Under the pieces are notes generated by a model. The model was not told the DNA's origin. It was given only the letters and a program-made list of their open reading frames with translations, and did not search any database. From Candidatus Binatia bacterium (GTDB lineage: Bacteria; Desulfobacterota; Binatia; UBA12015), in assembly GCA_029243485.1 (NCBI GenBank), contig JAQWRY010000052.1:124001-188000 (forward strand): a DNA stretch of 64,000 bases, in the 5' to 3' direction. Shown here in pieces: positions 3,875 to 54,391 of the stretch (positions are counted from its first letter, which is position 1; the number at the start of each line of letters is the position of its first letter). The position numbers and the translations under genes are program-made.

Positions 3875-4303
3875 TCAGGCGATCGGAAGCGCCAGGCGTA
3901 CCGCGGCCGTGACGTGCTTTCCGATGCTGTTCTTGCCGATCACCTCGATGTCGACCACGCCCCCGTCTTCCGTCCGGGCCGTGACCCTTCCGGTGAGCGT
4001 CATCGTGTCGCCGGCGTAGTTGGGCGCACCCAGCTTGATCTGGATGGCCTTGAAGAACGCCTCCGGCCCGGCCCAGTCGTTCACGTAGCGCTGGACGAGG
4101 CCGTTCGTGGTCAGGATGTTCATAAAGATGTTCTTCGTGCCGCGCTGCTGCGCGAGGCCGATGTCATGATGGACGTCTTGGTAGTCGCGTGAGGCGATCG
4201 CGGTCGAGATGATCAGCGTCGGTGTGAGCTCGATGGCAAGTTCGGGTAGCTCTTCGCCGTCGGCGACCTGATCGAAGCGCTTGGTCGGAGCCAGTGCACT
4301 CAT
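3875..4303 (-). CDS. MaoC-like hydratase, ChsH1-like small subunit
   Basis: A 142-residue single hot-dog-fold protein. The R-hydratase motif is recognisable as RDYQDVHHD with Asp40 and His45, the usual catalytic pair. ATG 4303 is chosen over the longer frame because GGAAGGAGA precedes it and it overlaps the upstream acyl-CoA dehydrogenase stop as ATGA, the normal sign of translational coupling. In mycobacteria ChsH1 (about 129 residues) pairs with the MaoC-DUF35 protein ChsH2 to hydrate the 2-ene-propanoyl-CoA steroid side chain. Here a ChsH2-type partner lies two genes upstream in the same operon. Assignment to steroid substrates is inferred from the gene set. Confidence 0.85.
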   Translation of the reverse strand: MSALAPTKRFDQVADGEELPELAIELTPTLIISTAIASRDYQDVHHDIGLAQQRGTKNIFMNILTTNGLVQRYVNDWAGPEAFFKAIQIKLGAPNYAGDTMTLTGRVTARTEDGGVVDIEVIGKNSIGKHVTAAVRLALPIA

Positions 4304-5415
4304 GCGTCTTCTCCTTCCGCCAACAGCGCACCCAGGCGGGCGAGGTGGACCGAGGCGCCACCGAGGCTGTACTCCGTCTGCTTCGTCCACAGGAAGAACC
4401 GATGGATCGGGTAGTCGACGTCGGCACCGATTCCGCCGTGCAGGTGTTGGGTGGAGTGGGCAACACGGTGCCCCGCCCGACAGGCCCACCACTTCGCGAC
4501 CTCGACGGCCTTGTCGGCATCCCGGTCTTCATCAACCGCCCAGATCGCCTGGTACAACGTAGAGCGAATCGCCTCGACGTCGATGAAAGCGTCGGCCGCT
4601 CGCAGCTGATAGGCCTGGAAGCTGCCAATCGGCTTTTCGAACTGCTTGCGCTCCTTGGCGTACTCCGCCGTACGCATCAGCGCTGCGAAGGAGATGCCCA
4701 GCTGCAGTGCGCTGAGAGCGATCGTCGCCCGGCGCTCGATCCACCGAACGACCTCCGCACCCTTGGACGGATCCCCCAGGGCCTCGGCCGTCGCCCCAGT
4801 GAGCGTCACCGTGAACTGCGGCTCTCCGTTCGTCGTAATCTCCCGCTCGAGCGCGACTCCCGCCTGGTCGGGTGAAATCAGGAAGACGCCGACCGCACCG
4901 CCGTCCATCCGAGCCGGCACGACGATGCGCGCGGCACGATTCGCATCCGGCACACAGACCTTCACGCCGTCGAGCACCCAGCCGTCGCCGGACTTCTTCG
5001 CCGTCGTCGCGGGCCGCGCCGGATCGACATGGCCCATTTCGGCGAGCGCCGCCGTGAGAAACGTCTTGCCGGCGGTAACGTCGGGCAGACACTTCTTCTG
5101 ATCGTCCGACCCGAACTCCTGGATCGGCAGGGCGCCCAGAACCAGCGTCGAGAGAATCGGGAGCGGGGCAATGCAGCGACCCGCCTCCTCACAGAGGCCG
5201 GTGAGTTCGGACATGCCGAAGCCTCCGCCTCCGAGATCCTCACGAATCGCGACCCCGAGAAGGCTCGCGTTCGCGAGTTCGGTCCACAAGTCGTCGTCGT
5301 ACCACCCCGGACCTTCCGCGAGTTGCTTCACTCGGTCGTCGGTCGCGCGATCGGAGATGATCTGCCGCGCGAGGTCCTGGATGGCCTGCTGGTCTTCGCT
5401 CAACGAGAAATCCAT
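4300..5415 (-). CDS. acyl-CoA dehydrogenase, ChsE1/FadE28-like subunit
   Basis: A 371-residue acyl-CoA dehydrogenase with the N-terminal helical domain, middle beta domain and C-terminal helical domain in order. The flavin-contact segment HLHGGIG lies near 324-330 and is followed by DVDYPIHRFF. Where SCAD-type enzymes carry the catalytic Glu before YP, this protein has Asp334, and I see no Glu at the isovaleryl-CoA-dehydrogenase position. Mycobacterial FadE28 (ChsE1) has a similarly altered C-terminal motif and works only as an alpha2beta2 heterotetramer with FadE29. The probable partner is at 6421-7590. The stop overlaps the next start by four bases. Confidence 0.9.
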   Translation of the reverse strand: MDFSLSEDQQAIQDLARQIISDRATDDRVKQLAEGPGWYDDDLWTELANASLLGVAIREDLGGGGFGMSELTGLCEEAGRCIAPLPILSTLVLGALPIQEFGSDDQKKCLPDVTAGKTFLTAALAEMGHVDPARPATTAKKSGDGWVLDGVKVCVPDANRAARIVVPARMDGGAVGVFLISPDQAGVALEREITTNGEPQFTVTLTGATAEALGDPSKGAEVVRWIERRATIALSALQLGISFAALMRTAEYAKERKQFEKPIGSFQAYQLRAADAFIDVEAIRSTLYQAIWAVDEDRDADKAVEVAKWWACRAGHRVAHSTQHLHGGIGADVDYPIHRFFLWTKQTEYSLGGASVHLARLGALLAEGEDA

Positions 5416-5429
5416 GGCTGCCTACGCTC

Positions 5430-6395
5430 TCAATCCTTGACCGGTCGGAACTGGTGCAACGCCAGTTCCGGATCGGTGCGTACGAATTCGGCCTGTACGA
5501 CCATGCCGATCTTGATGTCGTCTTTGGAGATGCCGATCACGTTCGAGACGATCCGGACACCCTCATCCAGCTCAATGAGCGCGATCACGTTCGGGTATTC
5601 GAAGGCGGGAATCGGCGGATGATGCATCGCGACATGGCTGTACACCGTACCGCGGCCCTTCGACTCGATGGTCTCCCATTCGAGCGACTGGCAATGCGGA
5701 CACATCGGCTCCGGCGGGTGGCGCAGCTCGCCGCACGAGCTGCACTTCTGGATAAGAAGCTTGTTCTCTTCGAGACCCTTCCAGAAATGCGCCGTGTCGC
5801 GCGTGATCCCGGGGCGCGGACGCGGCGGCCGACCCTTCTTCTCTCCCTCAACGGCCGCTTCCGTCTTCTTCTTGCGTGGACGGAACTTGAACAAACGGAA
5901 GATCATCGTGCCGACCGTCTCGCCGTCCTGATCGCGGAAGGTGTAGAGCTGACCGATGAAGTGACCCGTACCGAGGCCGGTCTGCTTCTCCGGAGAGATG
6001 CTGTCGATCACGATCTCGTGCGTGAGGTGATCACCCGGCTTCAGGTAGCGCATGTACTCCTGGTCGCAGTTGACCGCGACCACCGAGGTGAAGCCCTGCT
6101 CGGCGAAGACGTCCCACAACTCCGCCTGCGCGTTCGGGCCGGTTGCGGACGGCGGCTTCAGACCGCGCATCGTCCATGCCTGCAACATCGACGGCGGCAC
6201 CACGAGGCCACCGAAAACCGACGCGGCAGCCGCCTCGGGATCGGTGTACACCGGGTTGTCGTCGCCCATTGCATCGCACCAGTGACGCGCCATCGGCGTG
6301 TTCACCGGATCGCGCGCCACGAACGGCTCGCCGACACGGCGTCCTTCGAACTCTTTCAGGCGAGCGTAGAAGCTCGTCTTCTCGTCTTCCAACAC
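5430..6395 (-). CDS. MaoC-DUF35 fusion protein, ChsH2-like
   Basis: A 321-residue two-domain protein. Residues 1-170 form a hot-dog MaoC domain in which the hydratase motif reads DDNPVY (Tyr50 where the catalytic His is expected), so this domain may be non-catalytic. After a basic linker (about 172-200) comes a DUF35 module: a zinc ribbon with Cys218, Cys221, Cys232 and Cys235, then an OB fold. This is the architecture and length of ChsH2 (about 311 residues), whose DUF35 domain docks the Ltp2 aldolase. The start is GTG 6395 after GGGAAGGGAG. Fourteen bases separate it from the downstream acyl-CoA dehydrogenase. Confidence 0.9.
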   Translation of the reverse strand: MLEDEKTSFYARLKEFEGRRVGEPFVARDPVNTPMARHWCDAMGDDNPVYTDPEAAAASVFGGLVVPPSMLQAWTMRGLKPPSATGPNAQAELWDVFAEQGFTSVVAVNCDQEYMRYLKPGDHLTHEIVIDSISPEKQTGLGTGHFIGQLYTFRDQDGETVGTMIFRLFKFRPRKKKTEAAVEGEKKGRPPRPRPGITRDTAHFWKGLEENKLLIQKCSSCGELRHPPEPMCPHCQSLEWETIESKGRGTVYSHVAMHHPPIPAFEYPNVIALIELDEGVRIVSNVIGISKDDIKIGMVVQAEFVRTDPELALHQFRPVKD

Positions 6396-6420
6396 GAGTC
6401 GTGCTCCCTTCCCTGCGGGG

Positions 6421-7590
6421 TTAGCCGCGCGGCAGTCCGAGGCCCATCCAGGCCACGATCTGTCGTTGAATCTCGTTCACACCGCCACCGAACGTGTTGA
6501 TCTGACACGCGCGGTACTGCATCTCGATCTCGCCGCGCAGGACCGCCCCGGGCGACTTCGACTTGAGCAGCCCCGGTTGGCCCAACACGTCGAGCAGAAG
6601 CCGATAGATCTCGATCAGCTCCTCGGTGCCAAAGACCTTCACCGACGAGGCTCGCGCCGGCTCGAGCTTGCCGCCTTCGAGCTCCCAGGCCATCCGCCAG
6701 TTCATGACCTTTGCCGCCTCGGTGCGGGCGAAGGCTTCGGCGAGCGCCGTTTGCACCCAACCCTGCTCTATCAGCGGACGGCCATCATCCGTCGTGGTCT
6801 CGCGCGCAAAGCGAACGGTGTCGTCGACCAAGCGCTGCGCAATGCAGCCCCAGACGCCGAGTCCGATCCGTTCGTAGTTGAGCTGAGTCGTGATGAGCGT
6901 CCAGCCCGCGTTCTCATCCCCGACCCGATTCGTCACGGGGACGCGAACGTCCTCGTAGTACGTCATGTTCGTGCGGCCATCGCCGACTGTGAAGATCGGT
7001 GCGAGGCTGAACCCCGGCTGGTCGGTCGGGCAAATGAGGATGGTGATCCCCTTGTGCTTCTTCGCCTCGGGGTCGGTGCGGACGGCGAGCCAGACGTAGT
7101 CGGCGTCGTTGGCGCCACTCGTGAACATCTTCGTGCCGTTCACCACGTACTCGTCGCCCACCCGCTCCGCGGCGGTCGAGAGCGCCGCGAGATCGGTCCC
7201 GGCCCCGGGCTCTGAATATCCGATGGCGAAGTGTACCTGCCCGCCGAGAATGAGGGGCAGGAACTTCGTCTTCATCTCCTCGCTGCCGTGCCGCATGATT
7301 GCCGGCCCGACCGTGTTCAAGGTGACGAACGGGAGCGGAGCTCCCGCGCGACGCGCCTCGTCGAGGAAGATCAGCTGCTCGATCCCCGTGAAGCCCTGCC
7401 CGCCCCACTCCTCTGGCCAGCCGACGCCGAGCCAGCCATCCTTGCCGATCTGGCGAATGACTTCCTTGTAGACGGGCCCGCCGACCTCGTGACTGAGACG
7501 CTCGCGCGTCTCCTCCGTCATGAGACCGGCGAAGTATTCACGAATCTTCGTGCGGAGCTTTTGCTGCTCAGGCGTGAAATCGACGTACAT
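6421..7590 (-). CDS. acyl-CoA dehydrogenase, ChsE2/FadE29-like catalytic subunit
   Basis: A 389-residue flavin acyl-CoA dehydrogenase. From memory of the family it matches mycobacterial FadE29 closely along its length (start MYVDFTPEQQ, YSEPGAGTDL at 125-134, TFGGGVNE near the end). Glu240 in NYERIGLG sits at the helix-G position that supplies the catalytic base in isovaleryl-CoA dehydrogenase and in ChsE2. It would introduce the alpha-beta double bond in a CoA ester together with the ChsE1-like subunit. ATG 7590 follows GGAG by five bases. The gene sits 25 bases upstream of the ChsH2-like gene and 39 bases after the CoA-transferase. Confidence 0.93.
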   Translation of the reverse strand: MYVDFTPEQQKLRTKIREYFAGLMTEETRERLSHEVGGPVYKEVIRQIGKDGWLGVGWPEEWGGQGFTGIEQLIFLDEARRAGAPLPFVTLNTVGPAIMRHGSEEMKTKFLPLILGGQVHFAIGYSEPGAGTDLAALSTAAERVGDEYVVNGTKMFTSGANDADYVWLAVRTDPEAKKHKGITILICPTDQPGFSLAPIFTVGDGRTNMTYYEDVRVPVTNRVGDENAGWTLITTQLNYERIGLGVWGCIAQRLVDDTVRFARETTTDDGRPLIEQGWVQTALAEAFARTEAAKVMNWRMAWELEGGKLEPARASSVKVFGTEELIEIYRLLLDVLGQPGLLKSKSPGAVLRGEIEMQYRACQINTFGGGVNEIQRQIVAWMGLGLPRG

Positions 7591-7629
7591 GGGACTCCGG
7601 GGGTTGTGAGGCAGGCGGGCGAACCGCGC

Positions 7630-10044
7630 CTACCCGGCCATTCGGTCTCCGATTATGGAAGTGCTTTCGAGGCGCTCGAGATCTTCTTTCGACAAACCCA
7701 GCTCACCGCTGAGGATTTCGGCATTGTGCTGACCCAGGGTCGGCGCAACGGTCGCGTACTGTGGCTCCGGTCCGTACGAGAAGCGCATCGGCCAGGTGGG
7801 GTAGCGGCGCTCGCCCGAACGGGGATGATCCAATGCCTGGTAGAAGCCCCGCGCTTCCAGCTGCGGCTCGCCGTACATCTTCGTTGCTACGAGAGCCTCG
7901 GACACGGGGATGCGGCGCTCGCGCAGGACTGCGACGACGTCGGCGGCGGAACGCTGCTTCGTCCATTCCGTCAGCTTCGCGTCGATCTCATCGTGGCGGG
8001 CCACGCGGCCGGACAGGGTTCCCAGCGCCGGGGCGGTCGCCCATTCCGGTCGCTCGAGAGCCTCCACGAGCCGAGACCACTCTTCATCCGTTCTCACGGA
8101 AAACGCGACCCACGCGCCCTCGTTCGTCGGGTACGCGCCCTGCGGCGCGAAGTCGCGATCGCGGTTTCCGTAACGGCCGAGCACGGTCCCATTCATCGTG
8201 TGCTCGATGATCTGCTCCGGCGTGAGGCATGTCCCGGTTTCGAGCTGGGCGACTTCGATGTGCTGACCCTCACCGGTCCGCTCGCGGTGCATGAGTGCAG
8301 ACTGGAGGGCGACACCGACGTGCATCGAAACACCGCAATCGATGAAGCCTCCCGGATTGAGCGGTGGCCCGCCCGGGTGACCCGTGACCCAGGTCATACC
8401 CGCGGCCTGCTCGATGACAGTCGCCCACCCAACGTAGTCACGCCACGGACCCTCGAGACCAAAGCCGGGCATCCGGACCATGATCAGGTCGGGTTTCGTC
8501 TCGATCAGCTTCTCGTACGTGAGACCGAAGTTCTCCATCACGCGCGGCGAGAAATTCTCGATCAGGACGTCGGTGTCGGCGAGCAGCCCAAGCAGGAGGT
8601 CGCGGGCCTCTTCCTGGCGGAGATCGAGAGTGAGATCGCGCTTCCCGTGGTTCGAACCCTGGTAGGTCGTGCTGTGCTCGTAGTAGTCCTCGCCGAGCTG
8701 CGGGTACGTCTGGCTGAAGCGGAAGCCGTCGGGGCGCTGGACCGACTCTACTTTGATCACATCCGCGCCGTGAGACGCGAAGTACATCCCGACGAAGGGT
8801 CCCGCCCAGAACGTGCCGAGATCGAGCACCCGCAGGTCGCGGAACGGAAGGCCTTCGACGTCGGGGCGACCGTTCGGCCGCTTCTTCCGAGTGGGGACGA
8901 CCGGCTCCTCACGTGCGGCCCAGGGATCGTCGAGTGCCCAGGTGTGCTCTCCCAGGCGCGGCGCGGTGGTCCGAATTGCAGCCGGCGTCTTGGCCAACCG
9001 ATAGGGGAATCCGGGTCGCTTCCAGTCGCGGCCGGGCTCCTGCACGAAGAACGGACGCTCGCGGAACTGATCGAATCGCTCGAGCGTGTCACCGCTACCG
9101 ATCCAGACCGTGGGAATGCGGAAGGCCTGGCCGAGCGTCACGATCTCGTCGGCCGTGTGCTCTTTGAGCCACGGCTGAATCGCGTCGAAGAACTCCTGCG
9201 CGACGGGAAAGTCGGATTGGATGTTCTTCTGCTCTTGCGCGAACTGCGGGACCTCGAAGAGCGTGCACGTGTCTTCCCACTGCTGCGCGGTCAGCACGTT
9301 CACGCCGACCCACGCGTCCTTGCAACGAAGCACGCCCGGCAACGGGGTGCGCCGCTTCTGCGGCGGCGGCATGCCCATCTTCCTGAGCGTCTCGGCCCAC
9401 ATCATCGGGTAGGGCAACGTCCCGACGAGGCACTCCATCATCGACACGTCGACGTCGACGGCCGAATTCTTGTCCCGTGCGGCGCGCACGGCGGTGAGTG
9501 CGGCCGTCGCAGCGAAGGAGCCGACGAGATACTCGGGGATACGGCCACCGACACGAACGGCTGCAGATCCCGGGAGGCCGTGTGCAGACACCCAGCCACC
9601 GGCCGCCTGGATCACCAGTTCGGTCGCCTCGAGGTCGCGGTACGGCCCGGTCTGACCGAAGGGAGAGATCCGGACGAGCGCGATCCGGGGATTGAGGTCG
9701 CGAAGGACGTCGAGACCGAGGCCCCGCTTCTCGAGCCGCCCGGGCCGATCGCTCTCGATGACGACGTCCGCACCAACGAGCAGCGCGCGAACCTTCTCGA
9801 CCGCACCCGGGCCGTCGAGATCGATCACCATGCTGCGCTTGTTCGCGTTCAGGTAGCGGGCGAGCCCACCCTCTTCGGGGTCGACCTTGCCGTCCTTGAA
9901 CGGGCCCCAGAGACGGAGAGGATCGCCTTCGGGGGGCTCGATTTTGACGACGTCCGCACCCAGATCGGCCAATAGCTTGGACGCGTACGCACAAGCGATG
10001 TCGCCACCGATCTCGACGACGCGTAGATCGCGAAGAGCTTCCAT
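7630..10044 (-). CDS. tandem CaiB/BaiF (class III) CoA-transferase fusion
   Basis: An 804-residue protein made of two complete CaiB/BaiF domains, about 1-390 and 405-800, each opening with a DLRVxxxG strand and the nucleotide-binding fold. Class III enzymes work through an Asp-bound CoA intermediate and are usually intertwined dimers of about 400-residue chains. The second half keeps an Asp at the expected place (GGFIDCGVS). The first half has Glu there (GGRIPEYLVG). ATG 10044 is preferred over an upstream TTG because the domain starts immediately after it. As first gene of the igr-like operon it probably moves CoA onto the substrate acid. Acceptor unknown. Confidence 0.9.
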   Translation of the reverse strand: MEALRDLRVVEIGGDIACAYASKLLADLGADVVKIEPPEGDPLRLWGPFKDGKVDPEEGGLARYLNANKRSMVIDLDGPGAVEKVRALLVGADVVIESDRPGRLEKRGLGLDVLRDLNPRIALVRISPFGQTGPYRDLEATELVIQAAGGWVSAHGLPGSAAVRVGGRIPEYLVGSFAATAALTAVRAARDKNSAVDVDVSMMECLVGTLPYPMMWAETLRKMGMPPPQKRRTPLPGVLRCKDAWVGVNVLTAQQWEDTCTLFEVPQFAQEQKNIQSDFPVAQEFFDAIQPWLKEHTADEIVTLGQAFRIPTVWIGSGDTLERFDQFRERPFFVQEPGRDWKRPGFPYRLAKTPAAIRTTAPRLGEHTWALDDPWAAREEPVVPTRKKRPNGRPDVEGLPFRDLRVLDLGTFWAGPFVGMYFASHGADVIKVESVQRPDGFRFSQTYPQLGEDYYEHSTTYQGSNHGKRDLTLDLRQEEARDLLLGLLADTDVLIENFSPRVMENFGLTYEKLIETKPDLIMVRMPGFGLEGPWRDYVGWATVIEQAAGMTWVTGHPGGPPLNPGGFIDCGVSMHVGVALQSALMHRERTGEGQHIEVAQLETGTCLTPEQIIEHTMNGTVLGRYGNRDRDFAPQGAYPTNEGAWVAFSVRTDEEWSRLVEALERPEWATAPALGTLSGRVARHDEIDAKLTEWTKQRSAADVVAVLRERRIPVSEALVATKMYGEPQLEARGFYQALDHPRSGERRYPTWPMRFSYGPEPQYATVAPTLGQHNAEILSGELGLSKEDLERLESTSIIGDRMAG

Positions 10045-10292: not shown

Positions 10293-10311
10293 ATGGCGGA
10301 TGATCCGCCAT
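10293..10311. promoter_or_regulatory. 19-base perfect palindrome overlapping the VOC gene start codon
   Basis: ATGGCGGAT, a central G, and ATCCGCCAT form a perfect 9+1+9 inverted repeat whose last two bases are the first two of the start codon at 10310. In mRNA it could fold as an eight-pair hairpin burying the AUG; in DNA it could be an operator. No regulator gene is adjacent. Confidence 0.5.
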
Positions 10312-10684
10312 GGTCAAGCTGGATCATCTCATCCTCATGGTGAACGACATGGACGCGAGTGTCGCGTTCTACATGGAGATAATGGGGTTTCGGGATGAGG
10401 GCAGCAGCGAGCCCTTCCGCGTGATCCGAGTCCGCGACGACCTCACGCTCCAACTGGCGCCCTGGGGCACATCGGGGGGAACGCATCTGGCGTTCGCGAT
10501 GGAGCGCCCCGAGTTCGATGAGGCCTTCGCTAGGATCCGCAACGCGGGACTCGAATACGGGGACTCTTTTCACAGCGTGGGGAATCAGCAGGGCCCCGGC
10601 GACGCGACCGGAGCTCTCGGCCCCGGCAAGGCCGTCTACGTCTTCGATCCGAACAAGCACCTGATAGAGATTCGTCACTACTGA
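10310..10684 (+). CDS. VOC (glyoxalase/bleomycin-resistance) family protein
   Basis: A 124-residue single-module vicinal-oxygen-chelate protein. It opens with LDHLILMVNDM and ends DPNKHLIEIRHY, the classic first and last strands of a beta-alpha-beta-beta-beta module pair. Candidate metal ligands are the early His (DHL), the central His in THLAFAM and the terminal Glu in LIEI. Members include glyoxalase I, extradiol dioxygenases, epimerases and resistance proteins; the short length argues against a dioxygenase. It is divergent from the igr-like operon, with 265 bases between them. Substrate unknown. Confidence 0.85.
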   Translation: MVKLDHLILMVNDMDASVAFYMEIMGFRDEGSSEPFRVIRVRDDLTLQLAPWGTSGGTHLAFAMERPEFDEAFARIRNAGLEYGDSFHSVGNQQGPGDATGALGPGKAVYVFDPNKHLIEIRHY

Positions 10685-21416: not shown

Positions 21417-24400
21417 TCAGCCGCCCGACAGTCTCGGTATCGGCAATCTCATGCTCGGCACACCGGAGCCCCGGTTCGGGATGTTTCCGATGAAACCACT
21501 CTTCTTGCCCCAAGGGCGCTTGGGGCAGATCAGGTCGTCTTCCGGCGCAGGCGGCGACGCGGGCGGCAGACAGCTCGTGAGACAGGCGTCGAAGTCATCA
21601 TCGTTCCCATCGTCACACGTCTCGCCGAACTGCGTCTGGACTTCACCGTCACCGCAGAACGTACAATCGTTTCGACAGGAATCCGTGTTGTCGTCGTTCC
21701 CATCATCGCAGTTCTCGCCGAACTGCACCTCGCCGTCACCGCAGTAGTTGCAGTCGTTCCGGCAGGCATCGGTGTTCACCGCGTTCCCGTCGTCGCAGGT
21801 CTCACCGTCGTCTAGGTTGCCGTCACCACACAGCGGCGACGTGCAATCGTTCCGGCAGGAGTCGCCGTTGTTGCTGTTGCCGTCGTCACACTGCTCTTCG
21901 AGCTGCAGCTCACCATCGCCGCATTGGGTGCAGTCGTCGCGGCAACCATCGCTGCCGTCACAGTTCTCGCCCGGGTCGATGTTGCCATCGCCACAGAACG
22001 GGAGCTCGCAGGAGTTGGAACACGAATCGTCGTCGACGGTATTGCCATCGTCGCACTCCTCACCCGGCTGGTCTTCGCCGTCACCGCAGAAGTTGCAGCT
22101 GTTCCGACAACCGTCCGTATCGATCTTGTTGCCGTCGTCGCAGGTCTCACCCGCGTCCAGAATGCCATTGCCGCACGACTGGATCACGACGCCCGGCAGG
22201 CAGGAGTTGCCGCAGGAATCGAGGTCGTTGTTGTTGCCATCGTCACAGGTCTCACCGAGAACGATCTGGGTGATGCCGTCGCCGCAGAAGTCGCAGGAGC
22301 CGCGACATTCGCTCGGAATCGGCCCAACGAGACCACCCGGAGGATCACAGGTCTCTCCGGACTGGGTCAGACCGTCGCCACAGAAGCTGCAGTCGTTGCG
22401 ACAACTGTCATCGTTGACGTTGTTGCCATCGTCGCAGCTTTCGCCCGACTGGACGACTGCGTCCCCACAAGCCGTGCAGTCATTGCGACAGGCATTGAAG
22501 TTGTTGGCATCACCGTCATCGCAGAACTCGCCGGTCTCGACGATACCGTTGCCGCACTCTTCCGAAACTGGGGTACAGTCGTTCCGACAGGCATCGGCAT
22601 TGTTGGTGTTGCCATCATCGCACTGCTCGCCAAAGCCGACCTGAACGGCGCCGTCGCCACAGGCCGTGCAATCGGTACGGCAGGAGTCATTGTTGTTGCC
22701 GTCGCCGTCGTCGCAGAACTCCCCGGCCTGCTGAACGGCATCGCCACAGAACGTGCAGCTATTGCGACAGCTGTCGGTGTCGACATCGTTGCCGTCATCA
22801 CACGTCTCACCGGCCTGCAGAACCTCATCACCACAGGCGGTGCAGTCGTTGCGGCAGGAGTCCGTGTCATTGCTGTTGCCGTCGTCGCAGAACTCGGTGC
22901 CCTCGACTACGCCGTTGCCACAAGCCGGCTGCGTGGTGCAGTCGTTGCGGCAGGCGTCGTTGTTGTTGCTGTTCCCGTCGTCGCAGAACTCGGGCGGCTG
23001 GATCGCCCCGTCGCCGCAGAACGTGCAGTCGTTCCGGCAGGAATCGTTGTTGTTGTTGTTCCCATCGTCACAGGCCTCGGGCAGCTGAACCACACCGTCG
23101 CCGCAGCTCGTGAATTGGCAGTTGTTGTCGCAGGCGTCGGCATTGCTGTTGTTGCCGTCGTCGCACTGCTCGCCGTGCTGCGCCTGCACGACGTCGTCGC
23201 CGCAGAACGTGCAATCGTTGCGGCAGGAATCGTTATTGTTCGCATTCCCGTCGTCGCACGCCTCGAGCGGATCGACGATGCCGTCGCCACACTCAGGGAA
23301 GGTGCAGTTGTTGCGGCAGGAATCCGTGTTGACGAGGTTCCCGTCGTCGCACTGCTCAGGAGATTGAACGACGCCGTCTCCGCAGAGCGGGGTCGGTGTA
23401 CAAGTATTGCTGCACGCATCGTTGTTATCGTTGTTCCCGTCGTCGCAGAACTCGCCGAACTGCGCCTGGACCTGACCGTCGCCGCAGAACGTGCAATCGT
23501 TGCGGCAGGAATCGAGATTGTTCGCATTGCCGTCGTCGCAGAACTCGCCGGCCTGTTGGATGTTGTCGCCACAGAACGTGCAGTCCCCGCGGCAGACGTT
23601 GCCGGTCGGCGGGAAGAAATCTCCCGGCGGGTCACACGTCTCACCGGCATCCACCAGATCGTCGCCGCAGGCCGGGATCCGATCTTCGTGGATGCTGCGT
23701 ATCTTGACCTTGATGGCGGCAACGGTGCCGACCACGACGGTCTGCTTGCGGATGTTCAGCTCGCTGTCGTTCGTATCGATCAGGGTACCGATGAACAGGT
23801 TGAAGCCCTGAATCGTGGACTTCTTGTTGCTGTCCGCGCCGACGAAGAACGCGAGGTCATCCGGATTTCCGGAGTTCGGCTGGATATTCGTATTCTGCTG
23901 CGTCCGAAGGTTCTGTCGAATGTAGATCGTCGAAGGAGCCGTAGCCGTGATGTTGACCTGGTCCTTGATGTCCCAGCTCTTGAAGTTGTAGACGCCGCCC
24001 GAGAGCGTGACCGTCGAGCCCTTCTTGGCCTCGAGCTCACCGTGACAGCCAGCATCGACCGTGGCGGCCCCGTCGACCGGGACCACTAACTTCGAGGCCG
24101 AGAGTGTGCAGTTGTCGAAAACGGCCGGCGGGATCGGCGGGAGGTTGCCGATCACCAGCGGGAACGGCTGTCCCGGATGCTTGGCGCCGCGGATCTCCGA
24201 AGTCGGCGCAAGATTCAGCGCGGTGTTGTAGTAGACATCGACGACAGAAGCGTTGCCCGCCATCGTGATCGTGTCGGCCACGATGTACCTCGTCGACGAG
24301 CCGGAGAGCTGGACCGCACCATTCTGCACGGTGATGTCGCCGCCCGGATTCAGGACCGCGTAGTTTCCGCGCAGATTGTTGTTCGCCCCGAGATCCATCT

Positions 24401-24545
24401 CGTTCAGTGCGATGTAGTGATAATCGCGCCAATCGGCCGACGGCTGCGCCGCAGCGGGCAGAACGCTCATGCAGACGAACCCAGCCATGAGAACTGCGGC
24501 CGCGACACTGCGGGGCACAAGGTGCTTCTCGCCAAACAGATTCAT
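21417..24545 (-). CDS. large secreted protein with 23 DUF4215 Cys-rich repeats
   Basis: A 1042-residue exported protein. ATG 24545 follows GAAGGA, and a signal peptide covers about 1-34. Residues 35-290 form a beta-rich domain with an ice-binding or parallel-helix look (repeated short strands, VDGAATVDAGCHGE). Residues about 293-992 contain 23 tandem repeats of the CGDGxxxxxExCDDGNxxNxDxCRNDC type, known as the Myxococcus cysteine-rich or DUF4215 repeat, each about 28-35 residues. A short Pro-rich tail ends it. The repeats would be disulfide-bonded and bind calcium, giving a long stiff surface stalk. Role unknown: adhesion or substrate contact is a guess. Confidence 0.92.
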   Translation of the reverse strand: MNLFGEKHLVPRSVAAAVLMAGFVCMSVLPAAAQPSADWRDYHYIALNEMDLGANNNLRGNYAVLNPGGDITVQNGAVQLSGSSTRYIVADTITMAGNASVVDVYYNTALNLAPTSEIRGAKHPGQPFPLVIGNLPPIPPAVFDNCTLSASKLVVPVDGAATVDAGCHGELEAKKGSTVTLSGGVYNFKSWDIKDQVNITATAPSTIYIRQNLRTQQNTNIQPNSGNPDDLAFFVGADSNKKSTIQGFNLFIGTLIDTNDSELNIRKQTVVVGTVAAIKVKIRSIHEDRIPACGDDLVDAGETCDPPGDFFPPTGNVCRGDCTFCGDNIQQAGEFCDDGNANNLDSCRNDCTFCGDGQVQAQFGEFCDDGNNDNNDACSNTCTPTPLCGDGVVQSPEQCDDGNLVNTDSCRNNCTFPECGDGIVDPLEACDDGNANNNDSCRNDCTFCGDDVVQAQHGEQCDDGNNSNADACDNNCQFTSCGDGVVQLPEACDDGNNNNNDSCRNDCTFCGDGAIQPPEFCDDGNSNNNDACRNDCTTQPACGNGVVEGTEFCDDGNSNDTDSCRNDCTACGDEVLQAGETCDDGNDVDTDSCRNSCTFCGDAVQQAGEFCDDGDGNNNDSCRTDCTACGDGAVQVGFGEQCDDGNTNNADACRNDCTPVSEECGNGIVETGEFCDDGDANNFNACRNDCTACGDAVVQSGESCDDGNNVNDDSCRNDCSFCGDGLTQSGETCDPPGGLVGPIPSECRGSCDFCGDGITQIVLGETCDDGNNNDLDSCGNSCLPGVVIQSCGNGILDAGETCDDGNKIDTDGCRNSCNFCGDGEDQPGEECDDGNTVDDDSCSNSCELPFCGDGNIDPGENCDGSDGCRDDCTQCGDGELQLEEQCDDGNSNNGDSCRNDCTSPLCGDGNLDDGETCDDGNAVNTDACRNDCNYCGDGEVQFGENCDDGNDDNTDSCRNDCTFCGDGEVQTQFGETCDDGNDDDFDACLTSCLPPASPPAPEDDLICPKRPWGKKSGFIGNIPNRGSGVPSMRLPIPRLSGG
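21560..23669 (-). repeat. tandem coding repeats of the DUF4215 protein
   Basis: About 23 imperfect units of roughly 84-105 bases, each encoding one Cys-rich module. Units diverge at third positions, so they are old duplications rather than fresh slippage. Two units (near 22330 and 23650) have a CDPPG variant with a longer insert. Confidence 0.9.
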
Positions 24546-24991
24546 TAAATGTCCTTCTCGTCTTCTGCCGTGCCCAACTCCCACTATGGGGTTCGACCGG
24601 CATCACTCGTAAGCATCAATTATGTGGACATGGCATCGGAGTGAGCAACCCAGATTTACCCAATCCTGTGCGATCTCTTCCACGCCCGGGCTGGCTATCA
24701 GGGAAGAGACCGGGACTCTAGCCGGCAAGCCTTCACTTCAGGCCGAACGTTCGTTCGAAAAGGCCAGCGGTGCTTGGGGATTCGCGGAGCCTCGCGCAAG
24801 GCGGAGTCGAGCTTCGAGCACGGACGGCCGCTGGTCGGCCCACGATTTCCCCAGGTTCCATAGGCAGATCCGCGTAGGTCTCTTGATCTTGACGCGCGCC
24901 GCACGCGGGCGATAGACCGACCGCCTCCCCGAAAACCCCATCCCACCAGCCGCGGCCCACCCGCGACCGAAAGAAGAGAAAGAGAGTCCAG
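24546..24991. other. divergent intergenic region, no gene seen
   Basis: 446 bases between the divergent repeat-protein gene and the netrin-like gene. Open frames on both strands have poor third-position GC and no recognisable product. Presumably it holds both promoters, but I could not pick convincing -35/-10 pairs. Confidence 0.5.
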
Positions 24992-33493: not shown

Positions 33494-34591
33494 GTGAAGA
33501 CCGACCCCGCGTATCAGACCGTTGCTCCCGACGACTTCCCCGCCATGCTCGAGAACCAGCGGTACTTCCGCCGGTCGTCCGCCTTCGAGGAGATCATCGC
33601 GAGGACCGAGGAGCACTTCTGGAATCCGGAAGATCCGGACTACATCGATTTCTCCCAGCCGCTTGCGGCCGACACCCCGATCCTCCCCTACGAATTCAAC
33701 GTCGAAGCGCACACGGCGATCTGGGACCGACTCGACGAGGGCCAACGCCTCGACTTCACCAACGACCAGGCCCGCTGGGTGGTCTCGAACCTCCTGCACG
33801 GTGAGCAGGGTGCCCTGAGCCTGTCTGCCAGTCTCTGCGACATCTTCCTCGACCCGGGCGCGCAGGAATACGCTGCGAACCAGGTGCGGGAAGAAGCGCG
33901 CCACGTCCACGGGTTCTCGCTCTACGCCCAGGCCCGCTTCGGCGGCGACATCTTCCCGGTCGGTGACACCATCGGGAATCTCCTGAACGACATCGTCGCG
34001 TCTCCGGTCGTCTACAAGAAGATCGTCGGGATGCAGATGCTCGTGGAAGGCATCGCGATGGGGGCGTTCACGACTCTGCACAAAGTCGCACTCGACCCGA
34101 CGCTACGCCGCCTCTGCCAGTTGATCATGACGGACGAGGCCTTCCACCACCGCTTCGGGAAGATCTGGGCCCACTCGACGATGCCCGACCTCAGCCCCGA
34201 AGAGCACGACGCCGTCGAGGACTGGGCGAAGGAGTGTTTCAACTTGCTCATGTTCAACATGGTCAACGCCGAGCAGAAAAAGCTGATCTACCCGCGCTAC
34301 GGCATCGAGTGGGAGTACGCACGCGACGCCATCGCCGAGGCCTTCACCGACACCGAGCGACGCGAGACGATGAAGGACTCGACCAACGTCTTCCGCGTCC
34401 TGACGAAGACCCTGGACAAGGCCGGAATCATCACCGACCGGACCAGGGACAACTACGCAATGTGGGTCGACATGGACGAACTACAGAGCGAAGGCGATCG
34501 GATGGTCGGTGACGACCTCGCCGAAGAAGGCATTCGAGAACTCGTCGACATCAACTCTACGAAGCGCAAAATCGTCCGCAAGCTCTCCTGA
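33494..34591 (+). CDS. ferritin-like di-iron oxidase/oxygenase
   Basis: A 365-residue helical protein whose carboxylate-bridged di-iron site is legible. Glu104, Glu134 and His137 (REEARH) come from the first helix pair, and Glu185, Glu215 and His218 (DEAFHH) from the second, the E...ExxH...E...ExxH order of R2-like proteins. Members of this fold include ribonucleotide reductase R2, acyl desaturases, AurF-type N-oxygenases and aldehyde-forming enzymes. No RNR large subunit is near, so an oxygenase or desaturase is more likely. GTG 33494 follows AAGGAG. TetR regulator downstream, nine bases from the stop. Confidence 0.85.
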   Translation: MKTDPAYQTVAPDDFPAMLENQRYFRRSSAFEEIIARTEEHFWNPEDPDYIDFSQPLAADTPILPYEFNVEAHTAIWDRLDEGQRLDFTNDQARWVVSNLLHGEQGALSLSASLCDIFLDPGAQEYAANQVREEARHVHGFSLYAQARFGGDIFPVGDTIGNLLNDIVASPVVYKKIVGMQMLVEGIAMGAFTTLHKVALDPTLRRLCQLIMTDEAFHHRFGKIWAHSTMPDLSPEEHDAVEDWAKECFNLLMFNMVNAEQKKLIYPRYGIEWEYARDAIAEAFTDTERRETMKDSTNVFRVLTKTLDKAGIITDRTRDNYAMWVDMDELQSEGDRMVGDDLAEEGIRELVDINSTKRKIVRKLS

Positions 34592-53542: not shown

Positions 53543-54391
53543 CTAGAGCTGAAGCGTGTCGCCCAGAGCGCCCGGCGCGATCCGAATACCGACGTAAAAC
53601 GGCCCGAAGAGGCCGTAGAGGGCGCTGCCCTCGTCGTACCGCATCTCGTAAACAATGTCGCGAATGGCCTTCAGGTCCCGGGTGAACAGCGTGACGCCCC
53701 ACTCCCAATCGTCGAGCCCGGTCGAACTCGTGATCAACTGGGTAACGCGACCCGCGTAGCGCCGACCGGCGGTCGCGTGAGAGCCCATCAGGCGCTTTCG
53801 CTCCTCGAACGAGAGCGAGTACCAGTTGCCGCCGTCCTCGCGCTTCTTGCTCATCGGGTAGAAGCAGAGAACCGGGTATTCGTCCGCGCTCGGCAGCTGC
53901 GGGTGCATCCGCATCTCGGCGTAGTGGGACATCCGATCGGCCATCGCGGTGACCTTCTGCTGAAACTCGGGGGACGTCGGCTCGAGGCCCTCGTCGTCGA
54001 TCAGCTTCCGTGCGTGGTCGCCGGTGCTCGATATGTACTCGCTCTTCTCGGAGATCGAGAGGAACGAATAGATCGTCTCCAGACAGGCGCCGAGCCGGGT
54101 CGCCGCAAGCTCCTGGGTCAGACGCTGCACCCGGCCGAGACTGGGGTGGATGATGATGAGACCCAGGTCCGCCTTGCCAATCACGCCGCTCGCGATGAAC
54201 TGGAGCCCCTCCTCGGCGTTACACCGAGTGAGAAGGGCTTCGTACTCTTCGATCGCCGAAGTCCGCTCGCCGGACGCGAGTGCCAGCCAGCACTCGCGAT
54301 CCAGCCGCTGGAACATGTGCAACACCGGCCAACCGGCTTCGCCGGCGCCGGAACTATCCGTCGGCCCCGTGGTTCCCTTCTCGTCCGCCAT
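53543..54391 (-). CDS. hemQ: HemQ/coproheme decarboxylase (chlorite-dismutase family)
   Basis: A 282-residue protein with tandem ferredoxin-like halves. Tyr178 in FYPMSKKR is the likely radical-forming Tyr and His205 in MGSHATAGR the proximal heme ligand; their spacing of 27 equals that of the characterised Tyr145/His172 pair. The Trp-Tyr of GNWYSLSFEERKR and the C-terminal EWGVTLF strand also fit. HemQ oxidatively decarboxylates coproheme to protoheme in the last step of the coproporphyrin-dependent heme route. The first 20 residues are a disordered acidic extension. No other heme gene lies in the window. Confidence 0.9.
   Translation of the reverse strand: MADEKGTTGPTDSSGAGEAGWPVLHMFQRLDRECWLALASGERTSAIEEYEALLTRCNAEEGLQFIASGVIGKADLGLIIIHPSLGRVQRLTQELAATRLGACLETIYSFLSISEKSEYISSTGDHARKLIDDEGLEPTSPEFQQKVTAMADRMSHYAEMRMHPQLPSADEYPVLCFYPMSKKREDGGNWYSLSFEERKRLMGSHATAGRRYAGRVTQLITSSTGLDDWEWGVTLFTRDLKAIRDIVYEMRYDEGSALYGLFGPFYVGIRIAPGALGDTLQL

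Follow-up and report, generated by a model that had tools for sequence, protein, structure and literature searches.

Does an operon that resembles the igr operon of Mycobacterium tuberculosis remove a three-carbon (C3) steroid side chain in a Candidatus Binatia bacterium and, if so, where is its Ltp2 aldolase encoded? This question is raised by a 64,000-nt stretch of contig JAQWRY010000052.1 (positions 124,001-188,000), referred to here as the window. Five tightly packed minus-strand genes are read in one direction in the order tandem CaiB, ChsE2, ChsH2, ChsE1 and ChsH1. The spacers between them are 14-39 bp, except that the ATG of ChsH1 overlaps the stop codon of ChsE1 (ATGA). An earlier note on this DNA had proposed an igr-like module outside the actinobacteria with a CoA-transferase and no Ltp2, and its coordinates proved correct. 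No Ltp2 gene was found within the operon. We consider it likely that this is an igr-type operon for C3 side-chain removal, from which Ltp2 has been displaced, in a little-explored lineage of the Myxococcota; the nearest named record, the metagenome-assembled genome (MAG) OFTM293, is labelled Myxococcota in the tree record.

Dehydrogenase and hydratase subunits

The operon proteins were scored by PDB sequence searches. ChsE2 (6421-7590, minus strand, 389 aa) scored 442 bits to 4x28_A and 430 bits to Tcur3483, both steroid dehydrogenase subunits, and 139 bits to the next dehydrogenase. ChsE1 (4300-5415, minus strand, 371 aa) scored 312 bits to Tcur3481 and 220 bits to 4x28_D, with the next match at 107 bits. 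The structure 4x28, which we take to be ChsE4-ChsE5 (FadE26-FadE27) with M. tuberculosis FadE26 as chain A, was rejected as a representative of ChsE1-ChsE2. The scores alone were therefore insufficient to call the window protein FadE29, and a ChsE2 tree of 38 rows decided. In this tree the window ChsE2 fell in a clade (support 98/99) with ChsE2 proteins of igr context from Myxococcota, Gammaproteobacteria, Novosphingobium ES2-1 and Vibrio. FadE26 (4x28_A) formed a separate clade (100/99) with genes of Nocardia and Tsukamurella that are not part of igr operons. Dehydrogenases of generic type or from ring degradation lay outside the window clade, so that the assignment to steroid-type rather than generic enzymes was borne out by both scores and tree, and the grouping with general enzymes that the earlier note had named as a refutation was not seen. 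That M. tuberculosis FadE26 scored slightly above Tcur3483 could mean that the module serves a longer (C5 or C8) steroid side chain, in the manner of ChsE4-ChsE5 or Shy-Sal, as could the several paralogous MaoC, DUF35 and thiolase sets in the genome. The separation of the two clades argues against this alternative, to which the aldolases discussed below are also relevant.

ChsE2 contains EPGAGTD at 127, Glu240 (in NYERI) and GGG from 368, and lacks the RxQF FAD motif. ChsE1 carries the FAD motif RKQFEKPIGSFQ at 256 and lacks both EPGAGTD and the NxER Glu. The pair thus has complementary FAD half-sites, together with an active-site Gly replacing the usual Glu. An alpha2beta2 dehydrogenase with FAD at the interface should show just this pattern, which at the level of sequence only answers the earlier note's second ground for refutation, a ChsE1-ChsE2 interface lacking the FAD contacts.

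ChsH2 (5430-6395, minus strand, 321 aa; Pfam zf-ChsH2 and OB_ChsH2_C) is a MaoC-DUF35 protein. Its DUF35 zinc-ribbon/OB domain (~5433-5846) scored 154 bits to 6ok1_B, the ChsH2 DUF35 domain of an Ltp2 complex, and alignment showed that Cys218, 221, 232 and 235 are present. Its MaoC domain (~5865-6395) scored 117 bits to the M. tuberculosis hydratase 4w78_A. ChsH1 (3875-4303, minus strand, 142 aa) scored 139 bits to 4wnb_B, and the next match was at 33 bits. The hydratase-2 dyad, D40-x4-H45, is retained in ChsH1, while ChsH2 has Tyr instead of His and its MaoC domain therefore looks inert, as in M. tuberculosis. The window thus has the igr combination of a ChsH1 with the active D-x4-H motif and a ChsH2 in which a seemingly inert MaoC domain is fused to DUF35. 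Each of the four proteins thus resembles steroid side-chain enzymes much more than generic relatives, in agreement with the identities given in the earlier note.

The same genome has a second pair, a MaoC-only ChsH2 and a ChsH1-like protein, in a different gene context (C56, 66500-67519; 6522-7519 of locus L056). Its MaoC domain is 46% identical to that of the window, and relatives of this pair in three other genomes (G253, G262 and G092) are placed with DUF35 and Ltp2.

The tandem CaiB protein and Ltp2

The first gene of the operon (7630-10044, minus strand) encodes a tandem class III (CaiB/BaiF) CoA-transferase of 804 aa with two Pfam CoA_transf_3 domains. The C half scored 210 bits to 9fn0_B and the N half 117 bits to 9fn0_A, the two subunits of BbsEF, the succinyl-CoA:benzylsuccinate CoA-transferase. 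In contrast to BbsEF, the window protein is one fused chain and is tied to a steroid-type operon rather than to toluene degradation. Alignment of the halves placed the catalytic Asp569 in the C half and a Glu at the equivalent position of the N half. The protein thus has the two CaiB domains, one of them with the catalytic Asp, expected of a BbsEF-like class III CoA-transferase. The N-half Glu is common to the window protein and four homologues (L095, L182, L191 and L199) and is not found in the more distant L099.

Homologues accompany the module in the genomes G257, G151 (L182) and G149 (L191), and another lies beside a ChsE1/E2-like pair on the Rhodococcus rhodochrous plasmid pGD02.2.1 (L199). 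In a second cluster on the latter plasmid, MaoC-MaoC-DUF35-Ltp2 is accompanied by an MhpA-like hydroxylase (L200). In Novosphingobium sp. ES2-1 an acyl-CoA synthetase occupies the CaiB position. The predicted role in CoA charging is supported by this position, and it is plausible that the CaiB protein charges the substrate with CoA.

Alpha-methylacyl-CoA racemases have the same type of fold as CaiB, and their substrates are 2-methyl-branched thioesters (PMC12246613). A racemase at this position might epimerise the C20 methyl group so that ChsE1-ChsE2 can act. However, the best matches were BbsEF and CoA-transferases, racemases reached at most 64 bits, and in our reading of the motif no His stands at the racemase His position. 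We regard a racemase as very unlikely.

The aldolase was sought in the genome with an Ltp2 family search (NCBIfam cut-off 469 bits). Two orthologues inside the Ltp2 clade were found on other contigs, C62 (694 bits) and C64 (646 bits; 562 bits to T. curvata Ltp2). A C28 protein also exceeded the cut-off (528 bits), yet fell outside the clade. The prediction of an aldolase encoded elsewhere was thus confirmed, and the absence of Ltp2 reported by the earlier note holds for the operon but not for the organism. C64 is not the only copy, and the one at C62 is the more canonical.

The catalytic residues of TcLtp2 are Tyr294, within YDHF, and Tyr344 (PMC12329534). Both are retained in the C62 and C64 proteins. 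The oxyanion-hole His296 is present in C62, which has the canonical YDHF, and is Ala in C64 (YDAF). Neither orthologue has the Sal-type YDCY/Gln, and ChsH1-ChsH2 heteromers with Ltp2 form the set specific to C3 side chains (PMC12329534). Together with the ChsE2 tree, these features make a module for C5 or C8 side chains quite unlikely.

A stand-alone DUF35 gene precedes the C64 Ltp2, and its product is 82% identical to the DUF35 domain fused in the window ChsH2. The window, C64 and OFTM293 copies form one clade (98/96), indicating that the duplication of DUF35 arose within the lineage. Ltp2-family proteins above the cut-off occur in 61 of the 148 genomes of the class, which is therefore rich in such chemistry. 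The repertoire of SCP2-type thiolases and retro-aldolases in the window genome is unusually large, with at least 19 strong SCP2-type thiolases, many adjoining stand-alone DUF35 genes.

A genome of the same family and another genus (G257) has CaiB, ChsE2, fused ChsH2, ChsE1, ChsH1 and Ltp2 contiguously (L233, 3340-10751). Since this order is kept there, the window operon represents an ancestral igr operon minus its terminal Ltp2. Neither the window genome nor the congeners G258 and Co_bin.122 (G260) showed an Ltp2 gene beside the operon; in OFTM293 the contig ends just past ChsH2 and the operon tail is unseen. An assembly error as the cause of the missing gene was rejected because the C64 region is syntenic in OFTM293 (L055 versus L102) and because operons without Ltp2 recur in these two congeners. 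ChsH2 is fused to DUF35 in the window genome, G258 and G257, and ends after MaoC in two of the three other congeners, OFTM293 (G259/G148) and Co_bin.122 (G260/G154). A free DUF35 adjoins Ltp2 in OFTM293 (L102). A natural split of ChsH2 is plausible because both activities remained when its MaoC and DUF35 domains were split artificially in Comamonas testosteroni TA441 (PMC12502768). Ltp2 would have left the operon in the window genus, probably to the C62 locus, and a second copy with its own DUF35 may have arisen at C64. This would have made DUF35 partly redundant, and the two sisters may then have dropped it from ChsH2.

Steroid pathway context and substrate

At a distance of about 12 kb from ChsH1, the contig also encodes IpdA (301 bits; next non-Ipd match 95) and IpdB (228 bits; next match 53), followed by a PRK07938-family enoyl-CoA hydratase and a dehydrogenase. 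Both proteins that mark the steroid C/D-ring (HIP) pathway are therefore present. The ipdAB block is 91-96% identical in OFTM293, and Co_bin.122 has an IpdA fragment that is 90% identical. The window genome further encodes Rieske proteins that resemble KshA, as well as a homologue of delta4(5alpha)-ketosteroid dehydrogenase (425 bits, against 120 for the next match). HsaC was not found, with a best score of 43 bits in this genome and at most 51 bits in the two congeners tested, while the same search gave HsaC-like proteins of 225-339 bits in five other operon-bearing genomes. A family search gave no delta1-KstD for the window genome or for OFTM293, and a 307-bit relative for Co_bin.122. The search for steroid genes suggested by the earlier note thus had a mixed outcome, and because neither HsaC nor delta1-KstD turned up in the window genome or OFTM293, classical degradation of the steroid nucleus appears not to be encoded there.

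These missing genes would also suit a module whose substrate is a polycyclic isoprenoid other than a steroid, for example an acid of the hopanoid or diterpenoid type, with the same CH(CH3)-CO-CoA group on a ring. The same chemistry would then yield a ring ketone and propionyl-CoA. The R. rhodochrous plasmid, where the module-like genes accompany an MhpA-like hydroxylase rather than an annotated steroid cluster, is consistent with this possibility. In a literature search for hopanoid side-chain degradation we found no described enzymes. However, ipdAB, which is specific to the steroid C/D rings, lies on the same contig with the PRK07938 hydratase, and both are highly identical in OFTM293; the genome also has the homologue of delta4(5alpha)-ketosteroid dehydrogenase. 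We therefore hold a non-steroid isoprenoid to be unlikely.

For the C3 steroid side chain, we infer the following course of reaction. The tandem CaiB protein would move CoA onto (or off) the steroid acid. ChsE1-ChsE2, as an alpha2beta2 enzyme with interface FAD and Glu240 as base, would desaturate the isopropionyl-CoA side chain at its 17(20) bond, and ChsH1 with the MaoC domain of ChsH2 would hydrate the product to a 17-hydroxy thioester. An off-contig Ltp2, C62 or C64, docked on DUF35 may then carry out the retro-aldol cleavage to propionyl-CoA and a 17-ketone. Several points weigh against this proposal. HsaC and delta1-KstD are missing as described, some other ring compound that bears an isopropionyl-CoA group could be the substrate in nature, and the role of CaiB, though plausible, is read from its family and position. 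Moreover, the assembly is a draft of 88 contigs with a completeness of 97.5%, and the absences reported for it come from family searches.

The complete 9,10-seco gene set was reported by Holert et al. (2018) only in Actinobacteria and Proteobacteria (PMC5790920). Among the Myxococcota, MAG SP3084 (G153, L100) combines a full ChsE2-ChsH2-ChsE1-ChsH1-Ltp2 operon with five proteins that resemble HsaC (225-315 bits) and one that resembles KstD (480 bits), and is a candidate 9,10-seco steroid degrader.

Neighbouring genes and comparison with known systems

Divergent from the operon, a small VOC (glyoxalase-superfamily) protein (10310-10684, plus strand; Pfam Glyoxalase) has a 76% identical counterpart in the same divergent place in OFTM293. 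Elsewhere in the window are a chlorite dismutase-family protein (53546-54391, 172 bits), a weak match to the di-iron N-oxygenase AurF slightly under the Pfam cut-off (33494-34588), and a 1055-aa protein with repeated DUF4215 domains (21420-24584).

The igr operon of M. tuberculosis has the same dehydrogenase and hydratase subunits, domain architecture and motifs as the window. It differs in gene order, in that Ltp2 is off-contig in the window genome, and in that CaiB rather than a P450 heads the operon. Open reading frames ORF40-44 of C. testosteroni TA441 are a genetically proven non-actinobacterial equivalent of igr, with a MaoC-DUF35 ChsH2 as in the window (PMC12502768). Unlike the window genes, they form part of a complete steroid mega-cluster that retains its Ltp2 (ORF43). 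Novosphingobium sp. ES2-1 has the identical ChsE2-ChsH2-ChsE1-ChsH1 order on plasmid p3 (NZ_CP063448), but besides its synthetase it has an Ltp2 gene immediately downstream, followed by VOC and P450 genes. Modules of igr type were also found in Comamonas, Stutzerimonas and Vibrio, and the Novosphingobium and Vibrio copies are on plasmids. Occurrence outside the actinobacteria, which the earlier note had pointed out, is therefore not a novelty. The biochemistry is known, and what is new is the arrangement, with a displaced and duplicated aldolase and DUF35 and a CoA-transferase for the synthetase, together with the missing ring A/B genes.

The genus offers a natural experiment on the tethering of hydratase and aldolase by DUF35, since among close relatives DUF35 may be fused, fused with an additional free copy, or fully split off. 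Tentatively, and with rather less than even confidence, we suggest that some Myxococcota, namely the window genome and its sister OFTM293, degrade steroids or look-alike polycyclic lipids through igr and Ipd modules without HsaC and delta1-KstD. If true, such a set of side-chain and C/D-ring genes would point to another, uncharacterised route of ring A/B opening or to cross-feeding on partly degraded steroids.

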